From a virus: 62,095 bases of DNA. Positions 1 to 62,095 of the stretch are shown here, one piece after another. The stretch is taken from positions 1 through 62,095 of IMG/VR virus record IMGVR_UViG_3300005747_000076; one strand, 5' to 3'. Each line of letters begins with the position of its first letter. Position 1 is the stretch's first letter. The position numbers and the translations under genes are program-made. The notes below the pieces were generated by a model, which searched no databases, was not told the DNA's origin, and saw only the letters and a list, made by a program, of their open reading frames with translations.

Positions 1-578
1 CGTGTTTTTTGTCTTACACCAGGACTTCCTGTTGTTAAATCATCTTCCAAGTCGTCAATAACTACGACGTCAACGTGTGCACCAGTTATTTTACCTCCAC
101 TACCAATTGCTTCCAATGTTGGGTCAACCGAAGCACCGTCTCTTTTAACGTATAATTGTGTTGAAGTCCATTTAGTATCTGGCCCCTGAAAAGGAGGTAT
201 ATCATCACCGTTTGCCCAATCTTCTTTTATTTTCGGGCTTTCTAGGAATTGTTTTATTAATCTAACACGTTTCTCTGCTTGGCCTGCAGATGCGCTTATA
301 AAGAGTATTGATATATTTCTATTTAAACATATCTGCCTCACACAGTATGAAATAGCTAACAAACTTTTGCCATGCCCTCTCGGAGCCAGAACTAAGAGTT
401 TTTTCTTATCATTTGTTTCTTTAGCTTGATGGTGTAATTCTTCTACTGTGTTTAACCAATTATTTCTATGTTCAGCAGCTTGCATTGATAAATAATAACT
501 ATCAAAGAAAACGGGAGACGCAATACTTAATGCTCTTCTTCCTTCTCTTGTCGCAACTAATTCATGTATATTATTCAT
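1..578 (-). CDS. terL: Large terminase, N-terminal ATPase part (cut by window edge)
   Basis: This open frame starts at ATG 578 and runs off the left edge. It encodes the ATPase motor half of the packaging terminase. Visible motifs are a Walker A loop, APRGHGKS (about residues 65-72), and a Walker B strand, VVVIDDLEDD (about residues 165-175), just before the edge. The nuclease half is at the opposite end of the window on the same strand, which implies a circular map opened inside the gene. The ribosome binding site is weak, and the start overlaps the upstream gene by 8 bases, suggesting coupled translation. Terminases of this type translocate DNA into the prohead through the portal. Confidence 0.9.
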   Translation of the reverse strand, partial: MNNIHELVATREGRRALSIASPVFFDSYYLSMQAAEHRNNWLNTVEELHHQAKETNDKKKLLVLAPRGHGKSLLAISYCVRQICLNRNISILFISASAGQAEKRVRLIKQFLESPKIKEDWANGDDIPPFQGPDTKWTSTQLYVKRDGASVDPTLEAIGSGGKITGAHVDVVVIDDLEDDLTTGSPGVRQKT

Positions 579-3945: not shown

Positions 3946-3968
3946 TAAAAAAAGGCCAGTTAAGGCCT
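3946..3968 (-). terminator. Intrinsic terminator
   Basis: AGGCC-agttaa-GGCCT is followed, reading minus, by a T run (the A run at 3947-3953). It sits just after the stop of the minus gene ending at 3998, and may also end the plus gene that stops at 3926. Confidence 0.6.
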
Positions 3969-3997: not shown

Positions 3998-4267
3998 TTA
4001 ATCTATCAGCTCGCCTTTTTCATTTAAATACGAAGCTTGGCAATCCCATAGTATTATATTTTCAACTGAAACTGTATGAGGTTTGCCATTTGTTAATAAT
4101 TCCCAAATCATTCCGCCTCTTTTACTATCATATGATTGGCTAACAAATATAGAAACATTAGGTTTAATATCTTTCTTACGTCTATCTTTGCTTTTAATCC
4201 AGTATAATAATTCACCGCCACGGCATTGGAAAATAATATCTTGCATTTTCTTCTTTTTAAATGTCAT
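3998..4267 (-). CDS. Hypothetical basic protein
   Basis: An 89-residue protein not recognised. The N-terminal half is strongly basic (MTFKKKKM, then KSKDRRKKDIK). It starts one base after the stop of the polymerase-like gene upstream, so it is co-transcribed and probably translationally coupled with it. A role with nucleic acid or as an accessory to the upstream gene is possible but not shown. Confidence 0.65.
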   Translation of the reverse strand: MTFKKKKMQDIIFQCRGGELLYWIKSKDRRKKDIKPNVSIFVSQSYDSKRGGMIWELLTNGKPHTVSVENIILWDCQASYLNEKGELID

Positions 4268-4268
4268 C

Positions 4269-5270
4269 TTAAATTTCTTTCACTGTAATTGGGTATTGGT
4301 TATTATTATATATTACTGAATTTGTGTTAACCTTGTTTTTTGTAATAATTCCATCATGGATATTAAGAACTGTATCATTGTTAGTTAATTGGCCAATAAT
4401 TTGTTGCTCGATGTATGTGAAGTATTTGTGAGGAGTATTAATTTCTACATCTTTTCCATTGTGTTGAACTGATGTGTATTTCTGTTTTACTCTTCTTTCA
4501 ATTTCAATGTGTAATTTATCAAACCATTGGACGCCAAAAAAGTTTTTCTTAGTTGTTGTTAAGTAGCAACGATACCTTTTAGCTTCTTCTTCATTACATT
4601 TAAAATCATTCATAATCCTGTCAATTAAAACGTCCTTATTATCAGGATGTAGCGCCCATGCCATTTCTAAATTACATTCATTCATGTTTAATTCATTAAA
4701 AGCAATAGTTGTGTGAGCAGATTTTAGATCAACGTCATAGCAACCTTGAAAGAGTTTATTGCGTAGTGATTTAGGAAGCAACTGAAAAGGATTATATTTA
4801 CGGAATGGGCTAGCATGTGTTGATGTGTAATAATCTTGGAAAGGTTTATCGGTCCATTCTTCCCATTTTTCAGTTAATAAATCTTTATTTTCTAGATCTG
4901 TTGTTGAATGTGAATAACCTTTAATAATTTCTTGGGGTATTACTAAATCACTAGCATCGTCCAATAACTGTTGAAATCCAGGAGTAAAGTTTTTAATAAC
5001 TCTACATTTGCCTTTCACCCATTCCCATTCATTACTAACAAATTCAATTGCATAACTAAAAACTTTTTGGTATGTTGTTCTATGAATTCCCATGTTCTGT
5101 AAATGAGTTGTGCTTACAAACATTTCACAATCATCATCCATGTTTTTATGCATATCTGCTACGTGTTTAATAGCATAGAATGTATCAACTGCTTGTGTCT
5201 TAGGTCTTCTAGTATAATTTCCTAATTCCTTCAGTCTAAATCTTAATTCGTTTTCGTTAGTAATTTTCAT
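4269..5270 (-). CDS. Polymerase-palm-like protein, candidate replication protein
   Basis: A 333-residue protein starting at ATG 5270 (GTGGGGAC upstream; the in-frame GTG at 5279 is less likely). Three blocks appear in the order expected of single-subunit family A-type polymerases. Block A is YDVDLKSAHTTIAF (about 178-191), block B RYRCYLTTTKKNFFG (about 232-246), and block C VLNIHDGIIT (about 301-310). It is far shorter than normal family A enzymes, with no exonuclease domain visible. No other replication polymerase, primase or helicase is seen in the window, so this is the best replication candidate. The fold assignment is inference from motif order. Confidence 0.5.
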   Translation of the reverse strand: MKITNENELRFRLKELGNYTRRPKTQAVDTFYAIKHVADMHKNMDDDCEMFVSTTHLQNMGIHRTTYQKVFSYAIEFVSNEWEWVKGKCRVIKNFTPGFQQLLDDASDLVIPQEIIKGYSHSTTDLENKDLLTEKWEEWTDKPFQDYYTSTHASPFRKYNPFQLLPKSLRNKLFQGCYDVDLKSAHTTIAFNELNMNECNLEMAWALHPDNKDVLIDRIMNDFKCNEEEAKRYRCYLTTTKKNFFGVQWFDKLHIEIERRVKQKYTSVQHNGKDVEINTPHKYFTYIEQQIIGQLTNNDTVLNIHDGIITKNKVNTNSVIYNNNQYPITVKEI

Positions 5271-7191: not shown

Positions 7192-7383
7192 TTACTCAGT
7201 TAAGTATTTATCTTTGTATTTTACTTTCCAACCACATGCTTCTGCAATCATTAACGTCGCTTCCAAATCTTCAGGTAAACCTATATAGTGTATAACTGAT
7301 TGGTCGTTTTCTGTAATTACTTCAACTGTTGTTGGTGTCTTTATCTTTATTTGTATCTTCGCCATTGCTATTTTCTTCTTCAT
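7192..7383 (-). CDS. Hypothetical small protein overlapping the terS 3' end
   Basis: A 63-residue protein. The first 62 bases overlap the end of the small terminase gene in another frame. The ATG at 7365 (MAKIQIKIK) is an alternative start. It contains a VEVITENDQSVIHYIG strand pair and a helix ending in CGWKVKYKDKYL. The function is unknown. It is probably translated by coupling to terS, since no separate strong site is present. Confidence 0.55.
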   Translation of the reverse strand: MKKKIAMAKIQIKIKTPTTVEVITENDQSVIHYIGLPEDLEATLMIAEACGWKVKYKDKYLTE

Positions 7384-8071
7384 TTTCTTCTTCTACGCTT
7401 TCTAATGAAGGCAGCATTTTTGTTGCTAGTGTATCACCTAATTCTTTTAATGCATTAACACTTACTCCTAGCTTTGCAGCTGCCTGAACTTGTATTTGCT
7501 TTGTATCAATATTTTGCGTCTCAATCTGGCCAACTGCCAATGTAATTTGTTCAGCACCTACTAATCTACTTCGCCTTTGATTAGTATCTCCTATAATTTT
7601 TAAATACTGAGGAACTTCTTTAGCTAACGGATCCATTTGTATTAATTGCCAACAAAAATCTGCAATTCTTTCATTTTCACCGTATAACTGTTCTCTTCTA
7701 ACGTTTACCTTTCCAGGAGTTAAATCAGTTTGCCACTCTTCACGTATTTCATTAATAAACTTATTAGCAGTAACATGTGTTAATCCGCATATATCTCCTA
7801 TCTTTCTGCTACTCTTAACTCCCCTTACTAATAGTGTTTCTACTACGTTTTTCCATCTTTCTTTATCTCCCTTACTGAATGGGCCTTTAGTTTGACTAGG
7901 AACTTCGCAGTCTCTTATAAAATTATGCACTTTATCAGGATGTTGCAGTGGTGAGACATAATCTTCAGGTCTTATAATTTCAGTTTTATCTACTTTAGCT
8001 ACCTTACTCACTTGTTCTATGAGTTTTTTATCAGTTTCTAAAGTTTCATTTATCTTTATTTTCTCTTGCAT
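7322..8071 (-). CDS. terS: Small terminase subunit (DNA recognition)
   Basis: A 249-residue protein with a helix-turn-helix at about residues 87-112 (SSRKIGDICGLTHVTANKF), used by small terminases to bind the packaging site. A helical middle part follows (DPLAKEVPQYLKIIGDTNQRR), then an acidic, Asn/Asp-rich tail (EEENEEENSNGEDTNKDK) suited to contact TerL. AGAGGACGAG precedes the ATG. It lies about 6.7 kb upstream of terL on the same strand with many small genes between, an unusually wide separation. The assignment is by domain layout. Confidence 0.7.
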   Translation of the reverse strand: MQEKIKINETLETDKKLIEQVSKVAKVDKTEIIRPEDYVSPLQHPDKVHNFIRDCEVPSQTKGPFSKGDKERWKNVVETLLVRGVKSSRKIGDICGLTHVTANKFINEIREEWQTDLTPGKVNVRREQLYGENERIADFCWQLIQMDPLAKEVPQYLKIIGDTNQRRSRLVGAEQITLAVGQIETQNIDTKQIQVQAAAKLGVSVNALKELGDTLATKMLPSLESVEEENEEENSNGEDTNKDKDTNNS

Positions 8072-8317: not shown

Positions 8318-9226
8318 TTAAGCAGTAGCAATTTGTTTAAATCTTTTTTTCATTTTATTGTGCTTCCAAGATTTATCAATAATGGCTCCTTCCATGCGGG
8401 GAGGTCTTCCTGGTATAAAGCCTTGTGTGATATAGTGCATTACATTTTTAGTATCACTGCTTATTTGTTTCCAGTTCTGGCCTCTTCTATATACTGATTG
8501 ATTAGGAATATGAACCCATAGTTTTGTGCTTTTAACTTTCCATTCTCTATTAAGATACTGAATAAGATTTGCTGTAGGAACATCTATTTCATTATATTTT
8601 TCTTCTTTATCTAGCTTCCACAATTTTACTGTTTTGTTCTTCTCAACAATTGATTTTAGTGTTCCGTTGTTCCAGTGTGAGTTGAGTATATCTGTTGGGC
8701 TTAGGCCTTCTTTAAAGTTATCCCATGTTCCTAGAATTCTGTTAAAGGCCTGAATATTACATTTGAATGTTTTGTTTGTATCCTTACAGTGGAAATATTT
8801 AGAAGGCTCTGAAAAGTGATCTACGCCGCCAACTGCCATATTGTATGTATCTGCATTTAATAAATATGTTTCATCAACAATTTGTCTTTCAGCAATTTCT
8901 GTTTCTTCTTTAGTATCATAAAACGCCATAATATGCTGTTCAAAGTTTTTAATTCCTTTCTGAGCAATCATATAACGAAGTAGAGTTCCGCTTCCAACAT
9001 ATTTTTTAAATTTAGAAATTGATCCTGTATTAATCTTACCCCAGTATTCAAAGCCGTTTGTATTATCAACCAGTTTATATATACAGTGAATTTTTGCGTC
9101 TGCCTTAAGGTTATTATCAAACAACGCCTCAATTGTGTCGCCACATAATGCTCTGTTATTCCAGTATTTTGCGATGTTGTTTGATGATGAACCGAATAGA
9201 ATTTTATTTGTTTTAGATGTCTTCAT
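8318..9226 (-). CDS. GIY-YIG homing endonuclease
   Basis: A 302-residue protein from the ATG at 9226, which has AAGGAG 6 bases upstream; an earlier in-frame ATG at 9247 lacks one. The GIY-YIG catalytic core covers about residues 46-135: CIYKL (48-52), EYWGKI (60-65), YVGSG, then the conserved Glu in AERQIVDE (113). The C-terminal part has repeated DNA-binding-like modules (IQYLNREWKV; YITQGFIPGRPP). Free-standing enzymes of this kind cleave related phage genomes to spread. It sits between small genes and terS, with its own terminator and AT-rich promoter tract, like an inserted cassette. No intron core was recognised around it. Confidence 0.85.
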   Translation of the reverse strand: MKTSKTNKILFGSSSNNIAKYWNNRALCGDTIEALFDNNLKADAKIHCIYKLVDNTNGFEYWGKINTGSISKFKKYVGSGTLLRYMIAQKGIKNFEQHIMAFYDTKEETEIAERQIVDETYLLNADTYNMAVGGVDHFSEPSKYFHCKDTNKTFKCNIQAFNRILGTWDNFKEGLSPTDILNSHWNNGTLKSIVEKNKTVKLWKLDKEEKYNEIDVPTANLIQYLNREWKVKSTKLWVHIPNQSVYRRGQNWKQISSDTKNVMHYITQGFIPGRPPRMEGAIIDKSWKHNKMKKRFKQIATA

Positions 9227-9353
9227 GTTTTTTCTCCTTAGAACCAATGTTTGTTTTCTTCTTGTTATTTTTTTTGGTTCCTATATCTATATATACTGTT
9301 AATATAGAAAGTTGAAGAAAAAAGTAAATTTTTTTTAAAATATTTTTTTAGTA

Positions 9354-10565: not shown

Positions 10566-11093
10566 TTATTTTTTGAAATTAAGAAAAATAAGTGTTCCTG
10601 TAAGAGCAAGTATAGTTGTTCCTCCTGTCCACATAAGGAGTTTACTAAATCTTTCTTCTTTCTGTAATGATATTTCAGTAATCTTTAGTTTTTCAGTTAA
10701 ATTATCTTTATCTTCTATTAAATCAGCATTCAATTTTTTACATGCTTCATCACGCTCTTCTAATGTTTTATCAAATAATTTACGTTCTGCATCTAGTCTA
10801 TCTTGACACCATAAACTTTGATTGTTCATTATGTATTCAATCTTTTCAAAAGTATCTTTATCTACCATAATTCCGTAAATCAATGAAGGTGATCCTGGCA
10901 TTAAATAATATGCTGTTATATCTAGGTCTCCTAACTTCAATTCAAACCCGCTAGGGTCCAGTATTATATTAGGATTATACTCAGAAGTTATGACGTTAAA
11001 TCCAGATGTATTTTCTATTCCGTTTGGTGTATTACCATATGCGGGAGGTAAAAGTAAAAACAGAGATAAAAATAATGATAGTATCTTTTTCAT
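10566..11093 (-). CDS. Exported protein with signal peptide and C-terminal membrane anchor
   Basis: A 175-residue protein from the ATG at 11093, whose start overlaps the stop of the upstream gene as ATGA; AAAGG lies 9-10 bases before. An N-terminal signal peptide (MKKILSLFLSLFLLLPPAYG) is followed by an extracytoplasmic part with a charged coiled coil (about 95-145) and a C-terminal membrane helix (MWTGGTTILALTGTLIFL). This two-ended anchoring resembles one-piece spanins, but there is no lipobox Cys. With its two upstream neighbours it forms a compact membrane/coiled-coil operon. A spanin or envelope role is inference. Confidence 0.65.
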   Translation of the reverse strand: MKKILSLFLSLFLLLPPAYGNTPNGIENTSGFNVITSEYNPNIILDPSGFELKLGDLDITAYYLMPGSPSLIYGIMVDKDTFEKIEYIMNNQSLWCQDRLDAERKLFDKTLEERDEACKKLNADLIEDKDNLTEKLKITEISLQKEERFSKLLMWTGGTTILALTGTLIFLNFKK

Positions 11094-11446
11094 TTCCATA
11101 AGCCTTTCTTCTTGCATTGAGGTGCAATGGCTTTTGCGATACGACAATCAAGCTTTGGTGCTTTAGTTTTAAACTTCTCTAATTCATCAACAACTCTCTT
11201 ATCACATTCAGTATGTTGTTTATCTTTAACTTCTCTTAGTTCTGTTATATGTGCTTTTCTTTCTTCTTTAATTTGTGTAAATAGTTTTTCATTATTACTT
11301 ATTTCTGCTTCACAAATTACTGCCTTGGGTGGAATATGAACTGAATATCTTCCTCCAACAAAACATAAAACACACATAATAAATGCCAATGCAATAGTTG
11401 CTTGATTTTTATATTTAAGAAGTAGTTCAATATACTCTTTACTCAT
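11090..11446 (-). CDS. Membrane-anchored coiled-coil protein (i-spanin-like layout)
   Basis: A 118-residue protein. It has one N-terminal membrane helix (about 15-33, ATIALAFIMCVLCFVGG), then a charged coiled coil (about 50-95) and a Cys-containing tail (CRIAKAIAPQCKKKG). This is the layout of inner-membrane spanins of the Rz type. It overlaps the genes on both sides (8 bases and 4 bases), so expression is tightly coupled. No lysis gene is adjacent; the amidase lies 4.7 kb away on the other strand. Function is tentative. Confidence 0.6.
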   Translation of the reverse strand: MSKEYIELLLKYKNQATIALAFIMCVLCFVGGRYSVHIPPKAVICEAEISNNEKLFTQIKEERKAHITELREVKDKQHTECDKRVVDELEKFKTKAPKLDCRIAKAIAPQCKKKGLWK

Positions 11447-18013: not shown

Positions 18014-18514
18014 TTAATCATTATTTTCTTTAGGCAACCAATTTTTAATATCTGTATGTAATTCAACCTCGTCAGGAGTTTGGCGCCTTATAATTTCTTT
18101 ATCTTTGAATATAGATAATTCAGTAATCATTGCTAACTGAAGATCACTTATTTGGTCTCTTAATATTTGTAATTGAATTTGACTATCACGCAATCTACTA
18201 ATTAATGCTTGCCTATCAGCATTTGCAACTGCTAATTTTTCCTTTAGTTCTTCTATTTCTGCAGGATCTCTGCCTGCTGCAATTGCTATCATACTGCCTA
18301 TTGACCCTGTTATAGTTCCTAAAACACCTACAACTATATCTCTATTATCAGGATTTATAGGGACAAATGCTAGAAATAAAATCATTAATATAACAAATCC
18401 AAGAAAAACTACTGAAAATACCCATCCTTTACGTGCTTTTTCACTTTGAGTAAATTCTTTTACTTTCTTTTTTACTTCTTCTTTTTCTTTCTGTTGATTA
18501 CTTGGGTCATTCAT
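18014..18514 (-). CDS. Two-helix membrane protein with cytoplasmic-type coiled coil, coupled to the cyclase
   Basis: A 166-residue protein. A charged N-terminal helix (about 8-28) is followed by two predicted membrane helices (about 30-53, VFSVVFLGFVILMILFLAFV, and about 58-81, GVLGTITGSIGSMIAIAAG), then a coiled coil (about 85-135) and an acidic tail. Both ends would lie on the same side. It overlaps the stop of the cyclase by 4 bases (ATGA), so the two are made together. No cyclic-nucleotide-binding domain is seen. It could be a holin-like, channel or effector protein; the pairing with a cyclase is the main clue. Confidence 0.7.
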   Translation of the reverse strand: MNDPSNQQKEKEEVKKKVKEFTQSEKARKGWVFSVVFLGFVILMILFLAFVPINPDNRDIVVGVLGTITGSIGSMIAIAAGRDPAEIEELKEKLAVANADRQALISRLRDSQIQLQILRDQISDLQLAMITELSIFKDKEIIRRQTPDEVELHTDIKNWLPKENND

Positions 18515-19383
18515 TTCTTTAAATCCTCTATAGTAATTTTAATAATATGTTTAACAAAATCAAATATAACATCAATCCATTCAAAAGGTCTAAGAATTAA
18601 ATAATCTATATTCCAACTTTGTTTTGCATAAGGATCACTTAACAGAGGCCATAATATCCAAAGCCAAGCAAACATTACAATAAATCCAATACGCCAGAAA
18701 AAATATTCAACTATTTCAATAATTCTTTTATTTCTTAACCTTACTCTTACTTTTCCTTTTCCACCAATCCTTTTACTTTTCTCGCTATCAGGCGGAGGCT
18801 GTAGTTGTGCTTCAATCAATCCCATTGCATAAACTTGTTCAGGCTCTGAAACACCTTTGAATTTATATAATCCAACAAATACACTTAATGCATTTTTAGG
18901 AATGTGTATATTTCTTTTCTTTCTTTCTTTAAATTTCATCATTGCAGAATGTGATAGTAATATTTGTTCTTCTGCACATAATGACATAATACGCGCAGCA
19001 ATGTTTTTTCCTAATCCATCAATATTAATACGCTTCGCACCGCCTGAAACTAAACTTTCTGCAGTTTTAGTTATAGTCATTTTATCCCAGTGTATACCTA
19101 TTCTGCTCCTGAAAGGAAATTTATGAACTCTTAAATATTTCTTATAGGCAAATGCAAATGCAACAGCGTCATGCACTGTTCCAAAATACATTAAAGTTCC
19201 ATCACTTGCGTCAATCCATTGTCCATTATGTTTAGTAATTAATGACATTACAACTTTATCATGTGTGCTAAACCATTTTGCCGCTGTTCTAGATCCGTGT
19301 TTTTGCACAAACTTCGTGCTCCCAATAATGTCTGTTATGACTATTGCTATCCAGTCATCAACCATTTCTTGTGGCATCCCCAT
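18511..19383 (-). CDS. Class III nucleotidyl cyclase with C-terminal membrane helix
   Basis: A 290-residue protein; AAAGGAAAAATAAT precedes the ATG. The cyclase homology domain covers about 10-190. The two metal Asp are D18 (VITDIIGST) and D61 (DASDGTLMYFG). The Asn/Arg pair of the transition state is N127 and R131 (GKNIAARI), and the substrate-side Asp is D122 (IDGLG). The usual base-selecting Lys is not found; Ile or Asp stands there, so the product nucleotide cannot be predicted. The end shows the familiar GLYKFKGVSEPEQVYAM block, then a basic linker, a membrane helix (about 228-248) and an amphipathic tail. It sits in the late operon between holin-like and coiled-coil membrane proteins. 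Cyclases are rare in phages. Confidence 0.85.
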   Translation of the reverse strand: MGMPQEMVDDWIAIVITDIIGSTKFVQKHGSRTAAKWFSTHDKVVMSLITKHNGQWIDASDGTLMYFGTVHDAVAFAFAYKKYLRVHKFPFRSRIGIHWDKMTITKTAESLVSGGAKRINIDGLGKNIAARIMSLCAEEQILLSHSAMMKFKERKKRNIHIPKNALSVFVGLYKFKGVSEPEQVYAMGLIEAQLQPPPDSEKSKRIGGKGKVRVRLRNKRIIEIVEYFFWRIGFIVMFAWLWILWPLLSDPYAKQSWNIDYLILRPFEWIDVIFDFVKHIIKITIEDLKK

Positions 19384-60976: not shown

Positions 60977-62095
60977 TTAATCAAATAATCCTGTAAATCT
61001 TTGTGTTTTATCATCATCATAATCTAGATCTTCATCTAAATCATTTCTTTGTGCTCCAATCTCGTTTAGGACTGAAGAAACTATATTATCAGTCAATCTT
61101 TCAGTAACTTCATTACCCATATAATCTAGGACTTTATCTCCAACGGCGATACTATATGTATTTCCTACCTTTTTAACTGCGTCTAATGCATGAATTAATG
61201 ATGTGAGAGTATCGTCATGCGGAGCTCTTGGATATCCTACAGCTTCGTCTCCCATTATATCAATTTTCTTTTGGCAATAAGCGTCTCCGTAAGGTAGATT
61301 TAATAATTCATTTTCAAATAAAACTGCAATGTGGTGTATTGAATTTCTTAAAGCGTTTTTAGCACTCATTATAACAGGTTTGACTGGAAGAGAAGTTCTT
61401 TGTAATTGTTGCACATATAAAGCACCAAAACTATTTTTCTCAACCCATATTTCTTTCACATAGTCTTTCCATTTATTATACATACTTACAATAGCATTCA
61501 TTATCTGTTGTTGTGTTATGCCTCGTTCATGGAACATATCTAAGATCCAGATTTTTCCGTTTTTATCTCGTGCTAGTGTATAGCCACATGTATAATCTGT
61601 ATCTTTAGTTTGTGCTTTCTTTTTATCACCTTCAATACTCAAGTCCCAGCCACATACTACGGTGCAGGCTGATAGATTGATTGGTGGCGGATTATTAAAT
61701 GAATAAGTGTTTCTTTTAGCTCTATCAATCCATTCCCTTTTAATAATAGCATCGTCTTCACTCTGCACTTCATTCTGCATTTCTCTAGCAAACAAGTGTG
61801 AGCCCATAGATCTGCGTTCCATTAATAAATATTCTATAGGTCTAAATTCAGGCCATAGAACTTCATAATCACCTTTAACAGCAACTTCTTTTAAAAATTC
61901 ATTTCCTTTACTATCAGTCTCTGTTATATAACTATAGTCATCAGGCCATTTAATAATAGCATTATCTTCTATTACTCTGTATGTTGGGTCAGTTTTCATA
62001 TGAGCATAAACATCATCGTCATGCTTTCTCGTACCAATTACCAACATCACACCTCCTTGGTTTAATATAGGTGTAACAGTAGCAGCAAGCCAATC
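60977..62095 (-). CDS. terL: Large terminase, C-terminal nuclease part (cut by window edge)
   Basis: The frame is open to the right edge (WLAATVTPIL just inside), continuing the ATPase half at 1-578. The coupling motif VIGTRKHDDD comes first. An RNase H-like nuclease follows, with Asp in CGWDLSIEG, Glu in EIWVEKNSFG and the final Asp pair in PHDDTLTSLIHAL. It cuts concatemers during packaging. The C-terminus is acidic (NDLDEDLDYDDDK). Joining base 62095 directly to base 1 gives a one-base frame error; one extra base would give an uninterrupted ...VRQKTR-DWLAATV... sequence. Confidence 0.9.
   Translation of the reverse strand, partial: DWLAATVTPILNQGGVMLVIGTRKHDDDVYAHMKTDPTYRVIEDNAIIKWPDDYSYITETDSKGNEFLKEVAVKGDYEVLWPEFRPIEYLLMERRSMGSHLFAREMQNEVQSEDDAIIKREWIDRAKRNTYSFNNPPPINLSACTVVCGWDLSIEGDKKKAQTKDTDYTCGYTLARDKNGKIWILDMFHERGITQQQIMNAIVSMYNKWKDYVKEIWVEKNSFGALYVQQLQRTSLPVKPVIMSAKNALRNSIHHIAVLFENELLNLPYGDAYCQKKIDIMGDEAVGYPRAPHDDTLTSLIHALDAVKKVGNTYSIAVGDKVLDYMGNEVTERLTDNIVSSVLNEIGAQRNDLDEDLDYDDDKTQRFTGLFD

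Follow-up and report, generated by a model that had tools for sequence, protein, structure and literature searches.

Background

The TV-Pols have been proposed as primases (Iyer, Abhiman and Aravind 2008, PMC2579912), and the divPolA2 proteins are divergent phage family A polymerases that have no exonuclease (Yutin et al. 2024, PMC11348598). For CcPol-MP, encoded by SCCmec, a role as an A-family primase has been shown experimentally (PMC7581432, PMC10061031); CcPol needs its small partner MP for de novo priming, and other polymerases then extend the primers (PMC7581432, PMC10061031). Here we describe a phage gene whose product would be a minimal, exonuclease-less polymerase of the TV-Pol/divPolA2 type, acting as a primase-like initiator that hands over to the host replisome; we give this reading a probability of roughly 0.6.

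Genome and gene content

The window, meaning the whole stretch of DNA that was analysed, is virus record IMGVR_UViG_3300005747_000076 (62,095 nt) and is an essentially complete phage genome. The gene for the large terminase subunit is split across both ends of the record, with the N-terminal half, including Walker A (APRGHGKS) and Walker B, at 3..578 (-) and the C-terminal half at 60977..62095 (-); compared with the intact terminase of sister contig L003 (...GVRQKTRDWLAATV...), the two halves join minus exactly one base, which falls inside one Arg codon. The record has no end repeats although the genome is complete, and the joining of the split gene across its ends indicates a circular or circularly permuted 62-kb genome, which bears out the supposition of the first-pass annotation that little or nothing of the genome lies outside the window. 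Sheath, baseplate wedge and portal are found among the structural genes, making this a contractile-tailed phage (myophage).

That annotation had also recognised no polymerase, primase or helicase elsewhere in the window, and the scans agree with it. Among the matches listed for 50 proteins (the early-region proteins against PHROGs and Pfam, the structural half against PHROGs alone, with the best 25 families for each alignment scan) there was no helicase, primase or polymerase; the hits were to a Holliday junction resolvase, DNA methyltransferases, a GIY-YIG endonuclease, an endolysin and structural proteins. PF00476 is not found in the window genome, although the search recovers it in 10 of 14 control genomes. 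A Walker A scan of the window proteins picked out the terminase together with a single site, of the kind expected by chance, in a structural protein; the terminase is thus the sole credible P-loop protein predicted for this phage. The absence of other replication enzymes is thus strongly, though not absolutely, indicated.

Elsewhere in the genome, a 249-aa helix-turn-helix-like protein of no matching family (7322-8071, (-)) reads like a small terminase subunit, and a GIY-YIG (SegE-like) endonuclease, slightly below the Pfam cut-off, lies at 8318-9247 (-); part of it also occurs in sister contig L003 near 11002-11250. The 290-aa protein encoded at 18511-19383 (-) matches class III adenylate/guanylate cyclases below the threshold (PF00211, E 0.0068); it has apparently hydrophobic C-terminal segments and no relative in phage records. 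Should it be a cyclase, it would be an unusual case of a cyclic-nucleotide enzyme encoded by a phage.

The polymerase-like gene and its motifs

The gene for the TV-Pol-like putative family A polymerase lies at 4269..5270 (-), with its ATG at 5270 and its stop at 4269, and encodes 333 aa (336 aa from an alternative GTG nine bases upstream); the codon-position GC of 0.40/0.29/0.23 is coding-like. The blocks VDLKSAH, KKNFFG and IHDG follow one another in the order A-B-C, with D181, K242-N-F-F-G246 and H305-D306-G307 (numbering from the ATG). To these three, which the first-pass annotation had pointed out, a fourth element can be added, namely a hairpin Arg together with NPFQLLPKSLR.

This hairpin or template element (residues 154-173, SPFRKYNPFQLLPKSLRNKL; 4752..4811 (-)) contains R157 and R170 and is in register with GGRFYSDFQNVPSEWRQHM of the Bacteroidota TV-Pol L086. 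By sequence alone, the hairpin Arg of the TV-Pols has its counterpart in R157 of FRKYNPFQLLPKSLR, aligned with GGRFYSDFQNVPSEWR of L086. The corresponding segment of Pol I in the 8jrb alignment is GRMSSLKPNVQNVPREER, with NPFQLLPKSLR resembling the Pol I segment PNVQNVPREER. Motif A (residues 178-189, YDVDLKSAHTTI; 4704..4739 (-)) carries the predicted metal ligand D181, at a spacing of 11 from R170 where 14 is usual, and motif C (residues 300-311, TVLNIHDGIITK; 4338..4373 (-)) the predicted metal ligand D306; in the block model described below these two take the places of the catalytic Asp pair of the TV-Pols, in order. The putative helix before motif C (residues 283-295, YFTYIEQQIIGQL; 4386..4424 (-)) includes E288, comparable to the Q..E of the NSQP family that is also introduced below (e.g. 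LLQSIESYVV).

The fingers region (residues 229-249, EAKRYRCYLTTTKKNFFGVQW; 4524..4586 (-)) is where the case for KKNFFG as motif B divides: KNFFG is matched by KVFFG of the NSQP family, but the defining RxxxK is not in register, the FFG-aligned positions being Y233 and L237 and the nearby basic residues (K231, R232, R234, K241, K242) all falling out of register. By direct reading, [KR]xRCxL[ST]T replaces it in the window protein and its sister. In Pol I, RxxxK holds the incoming nucleotide; with this motif out of register, the protein could have little catalytic activity left, or none. Motifs B and C lie about half as far apart as in Pol I.

The protein has no exonuclease, and its N-terminal 150 residues resemble nothing tested. 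Structure prediction with a fold search, which the first-pass annotation had proposed as a check, brought out no confident fold, whether a palm or the two antiparallel thumb helices of TV-Pols: AlphaFold gave a pLDDT of 32 for the protein alone and 36 for the core with the sister sequence, and Foldseek on the latter was uninformative. The low confidence reflects the small number of relatives, and as no usable model was obtained the palm fold is a prediction from sequence.

Related phages

Two sister contigs, L003 and L002, have a terminase 78-79% identical to that of the window phage and encode, on the same strand and directly upstream of it, a 459-aa protein reading CGRFFSVGMTLQNFSSSILKTLFRGNGYEIDQSTSHPTII...RCILSTCYG...LLCWRHDGVIM; the motifs of the L003 protein run GRFFS..YEIDQSTSHPTII..HDGVIM. 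BLASTP aligns it with the window protein at E 0.001 (as a single comparison), colinearly from hairpin to fingers, and in both proteins the motif C His lies 124 positions after the motif A Asp. In decoy tests the sister ranks best from the window side and the window protein second (self excluded) from the sister side; the margin is small, so that the BLASTP match by itself is only suggestive. Although the sister protein has diverged strongly, it retains the hairpin Arg and the predicted metal ligands, a conservation that argues for catalysis.

These residues weigh on the view that the protein serves repair or recombination as an accessory polymerase, or is a decayed pseudo-enzyme, in a phage whose replication is host-reliant and begun by an unrecognised phage initiator encoded elsewhere. 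The missing RxxxK would suit such a protein, many early-region proteins of no known family could be initiators, and divPolA2 occurs beside a main polymerase (PMC11348598); but the two phages have kept the residues just named, and no main polymerase is recognised in the window genome, and we consider this view unlikely.

A more distant phage, G003 (78.5 kb, terminase 38% identical), encodes a helix-turn-helix protein and a DnaB helicase (L012:10456-11844, (+); PF03796, E 2e-91). No DnaB is found in the window phage, so the replication module differs between phages with common morphogenesis genes.

Relationship to family A polymerases

A profile was made from 15 divPolA2 proteins (phrog_4756). 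When hhalign was used to compare 322 non-divPolA2 proteins of at least 200 aa with it, the sister and window proteins were placed exactly on motif A and had the two lowest P-values (0.0013 and 0.011, respectively; the next was 0.016). The same profile gives a weak match (E 0.014) to DNA polymerase I (8jrb) that covers hairpin and motif A, and over Bacteroidota genomes it led to TV-Pols (L082-L086) and to a divergent family with DI.NSQP as its motif A (L089), here called the NSQP family. Members of the latter (L089, L092-L110) come from Bacteroidota (among them L089 and L092-L101) and from huge phages (among them L106-L110, phage records of 595-735 kb), and the two members tested had no Pfam match. 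Behind the NSQP polymerase of L089, and in frame with it, comes a segment resembling a GIY-YIG endonuclease.

From 37 proteins of the divPolA2, TV-Pol and NSQP families, with the window protein and its sister excluded, a three-block model was built of an ungapped R-block, motif A and motif C at loose spacing. The blocks were picked after the resemblance had been noticed, and the families had been gathered via the divPolA2 profile, not the window protein. Against this model the window protein reaches 43.4 bits, with the blocks falling exactly on R170, D181 and D306, while the sister reaches 29.2 and the highest-scoring of 320 decoys 21.5. Shuffling the window protein 5000 times gave at most 27.4 bits, so that no shuffle attained 43 (Gumbel p about 6e-6). 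With blocks from single families its scores are 40.2 (divPolA2), 29.2 (NSQP) and 22.1 bits (TV-Pol). The polymerase-like arrangement that the first-pass annotation had read in A-B-C order within 333 residues is therefore more than chance. A score so far above decoys and shuffles points to a palm polymerase of the family A/TV-Pol type with a degenerate fingers motif, and we regard the polymerase-domain identity as very probable on the strength of these motifs. Of the same annotation's proposal of a possibly new polymerase, the family A-type palm motifs A and C are upheld and the novelty is not: the hairpin register and the block test suggest a very divergent member of the known TV-Pol/divPolA2 branch of superfamily A rather than a new kind of polymerase.

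Direct look-ups of the window protein gave no acceptable match in Pfam, PHROGs (the divPolA2 family phrog_4756 included), NCBIfam, the PDB, 50,697 phage records or 72,556 plasmids (the last two by tblastn), and a peptide scan of IMG/VR came back empty. Degenerate DNA scans with three motifs returned chance matches or the two sister contigs only in IMG/VR, and chance matches only in GTDB genomes. Searched with a profile built from the window protein and its sister, 395 Bacteroidota genomes gave no match and therefore hold no more close relatives, and HMMER hmmsearch with the divPolA2 profile misses both proteins. These failures are what would be expected if the resemblance were due to chance and the protein unrelated to polymerases, but the three-block score and a syntenic sister counterpart with the same motifs make that very improbable. 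A match to TPR_HPS5_insect (E 0.0029, below its cut-off) is noise, and an N-terminal domain in common with the NSQP family is unsupported (rank 230 of 323). VDLKSAH resembles motif A of reverse transcriptases; a reverse transcriptase identity was dropped, since the protein has no YxDD and its hairpin and IHD fit superfamily A.

The likeness to divPolA2 extends to the register of the palm motifs (LDFKSIHPAIL...PIHDALIC in L028, VDLKSAHTTIA...NIHDGIIT in the window protein), the best single-family score, the lack of an exonuclease and an N-terminal domain of no known family. On the other hand, divPolA2 of tailed phages (Vibrio, ICP1, Aeromonas, Rheinheimera) has RxxxK and DPY, both absent from the window protein, and accompanies a main DNA polymerase, of which none is recognised in the window genome; neither HMM nor PHROG searches link the window protein significantly to phrog_4756. 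RNA polymerases were among the structural matches found by the authors who described divPolA2, and a single-subunit RNA polymerase, providing phage transcription or RNA primers, has been suggested for that family (PMC11348598). The IHD common to the two enzyme classes would allow the same for the window protein, but it does not match the Pfam model of T7-type single-subunit RNA polymerases and is far smaller than those enzymes, and no set of repeated phage promoters was noticed; we think such an identity improbable.

With the TV-Pols the window protein shares the hairpin Arg, the order from R to motif A, the two Asp, the minimal size and the lack of a nuclease, and with one Bacteroidota member (L086) also IHDG. 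It differs in that RxxxK is conserved in TV-Pols and out of register here, in its R-D spacing (11 vs 14), and in having no helicase match in its phage where a D5-like helicase is a frequent, though not universal, neighbour or fusion partner of TV-Pols. The NSQP family has R..[HY][TN].[LF]...LR with a 13-residue R-R spacing, K.FFG, the Q/T..E helix and IHD in common with it, but the motif A differs (DI.NSQP vs DLKSAHT) and the N-terminal domains have no detectable kinship. Pol I (PF00476) is similar in the hairpin (NPFQLLP, PNVQNVP in 8jrb) and in the Asp of motifs A and C; the window protein has neither a PF00476 match nor an exonuclease.

Possible role in replication

What the sequence offers for a role is a template-binding hairpin Arg followed, in order and with fitting spacing, by motifs A and C, in a phage that encodes, as far as can be recognised, no helicase, no primase of the DnaG or AEP type and no second polymerase. 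We moderately favour an initiator or primase role, modelled on CcPol-MP of SCCmec, over bulk replication. D181 and D306 would bind two metals for two-metal nucleotidyl transfer, and the polymerase, alone or with a small ssDNA-binding partner, would prime opened phage DNA at the origin, after which host DnaB helicase and the host replicative polymerase would copy the phage genome. CcPol has its small OB-fold partner encoded next door; here a gene for an 89-aa protein, with no Pfam match and a partner only by conjecture, lies at 3998..4267 (-), starting one base after the polymerase stop and possibly supplying that function. It has a terminator-like hairpin and T run on its 3' side (3953..3968 (-), a consensus match only), and the sister phage has a different gene at its position. 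Near the polymerase gene no iteron array or clear origin was found. Against an initiator stands the fact that TV-Pol- and CcPol-type primases usually adjoin a helicase, and the window phage has none.

It is also conceivable that the protein is the actual replicase, priming and copying most of the 62 kb with only a helicase from the host. It is the only polymerase recognised in the window genome, and small elements such as Sputnik replicate with a TV-Pol and a helicase (PMC2579912); however, 62 kb is large for an enzyme with a very small domain, a degenerate fingers motif and neither exonuclease nor helicase, and there seems little likelihood of it.

The unusual point, as far as the motifs can be trusted, is that, in a myophage with a complete genome of 62 kb, a divergent polymerase appears to be the one replication enzyme that can be recognised. 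Going further, we suggest tentatively, at somewhat less than even odds, that in this contractile-tailed phage a 333-aa enzyme without RxxxK, helicase or exonuclease is the sole dedicated replication protein, a stand-alone A-family primase or initiator with direct hand-over to the host replisome. The class of A-family primases is recent, and the few sampled so far come mainly from SCCmec and related elements. If the suggestion is true, it shows how little a phage of 62 kb needs in order to start replication and tests whether an A-family type of polymerase can prime without a helicase of its own; and phage genomes annotated as having no polymerase may hide enzymes that lie beyond the reach of Pfam, PHROGs and tblastn.
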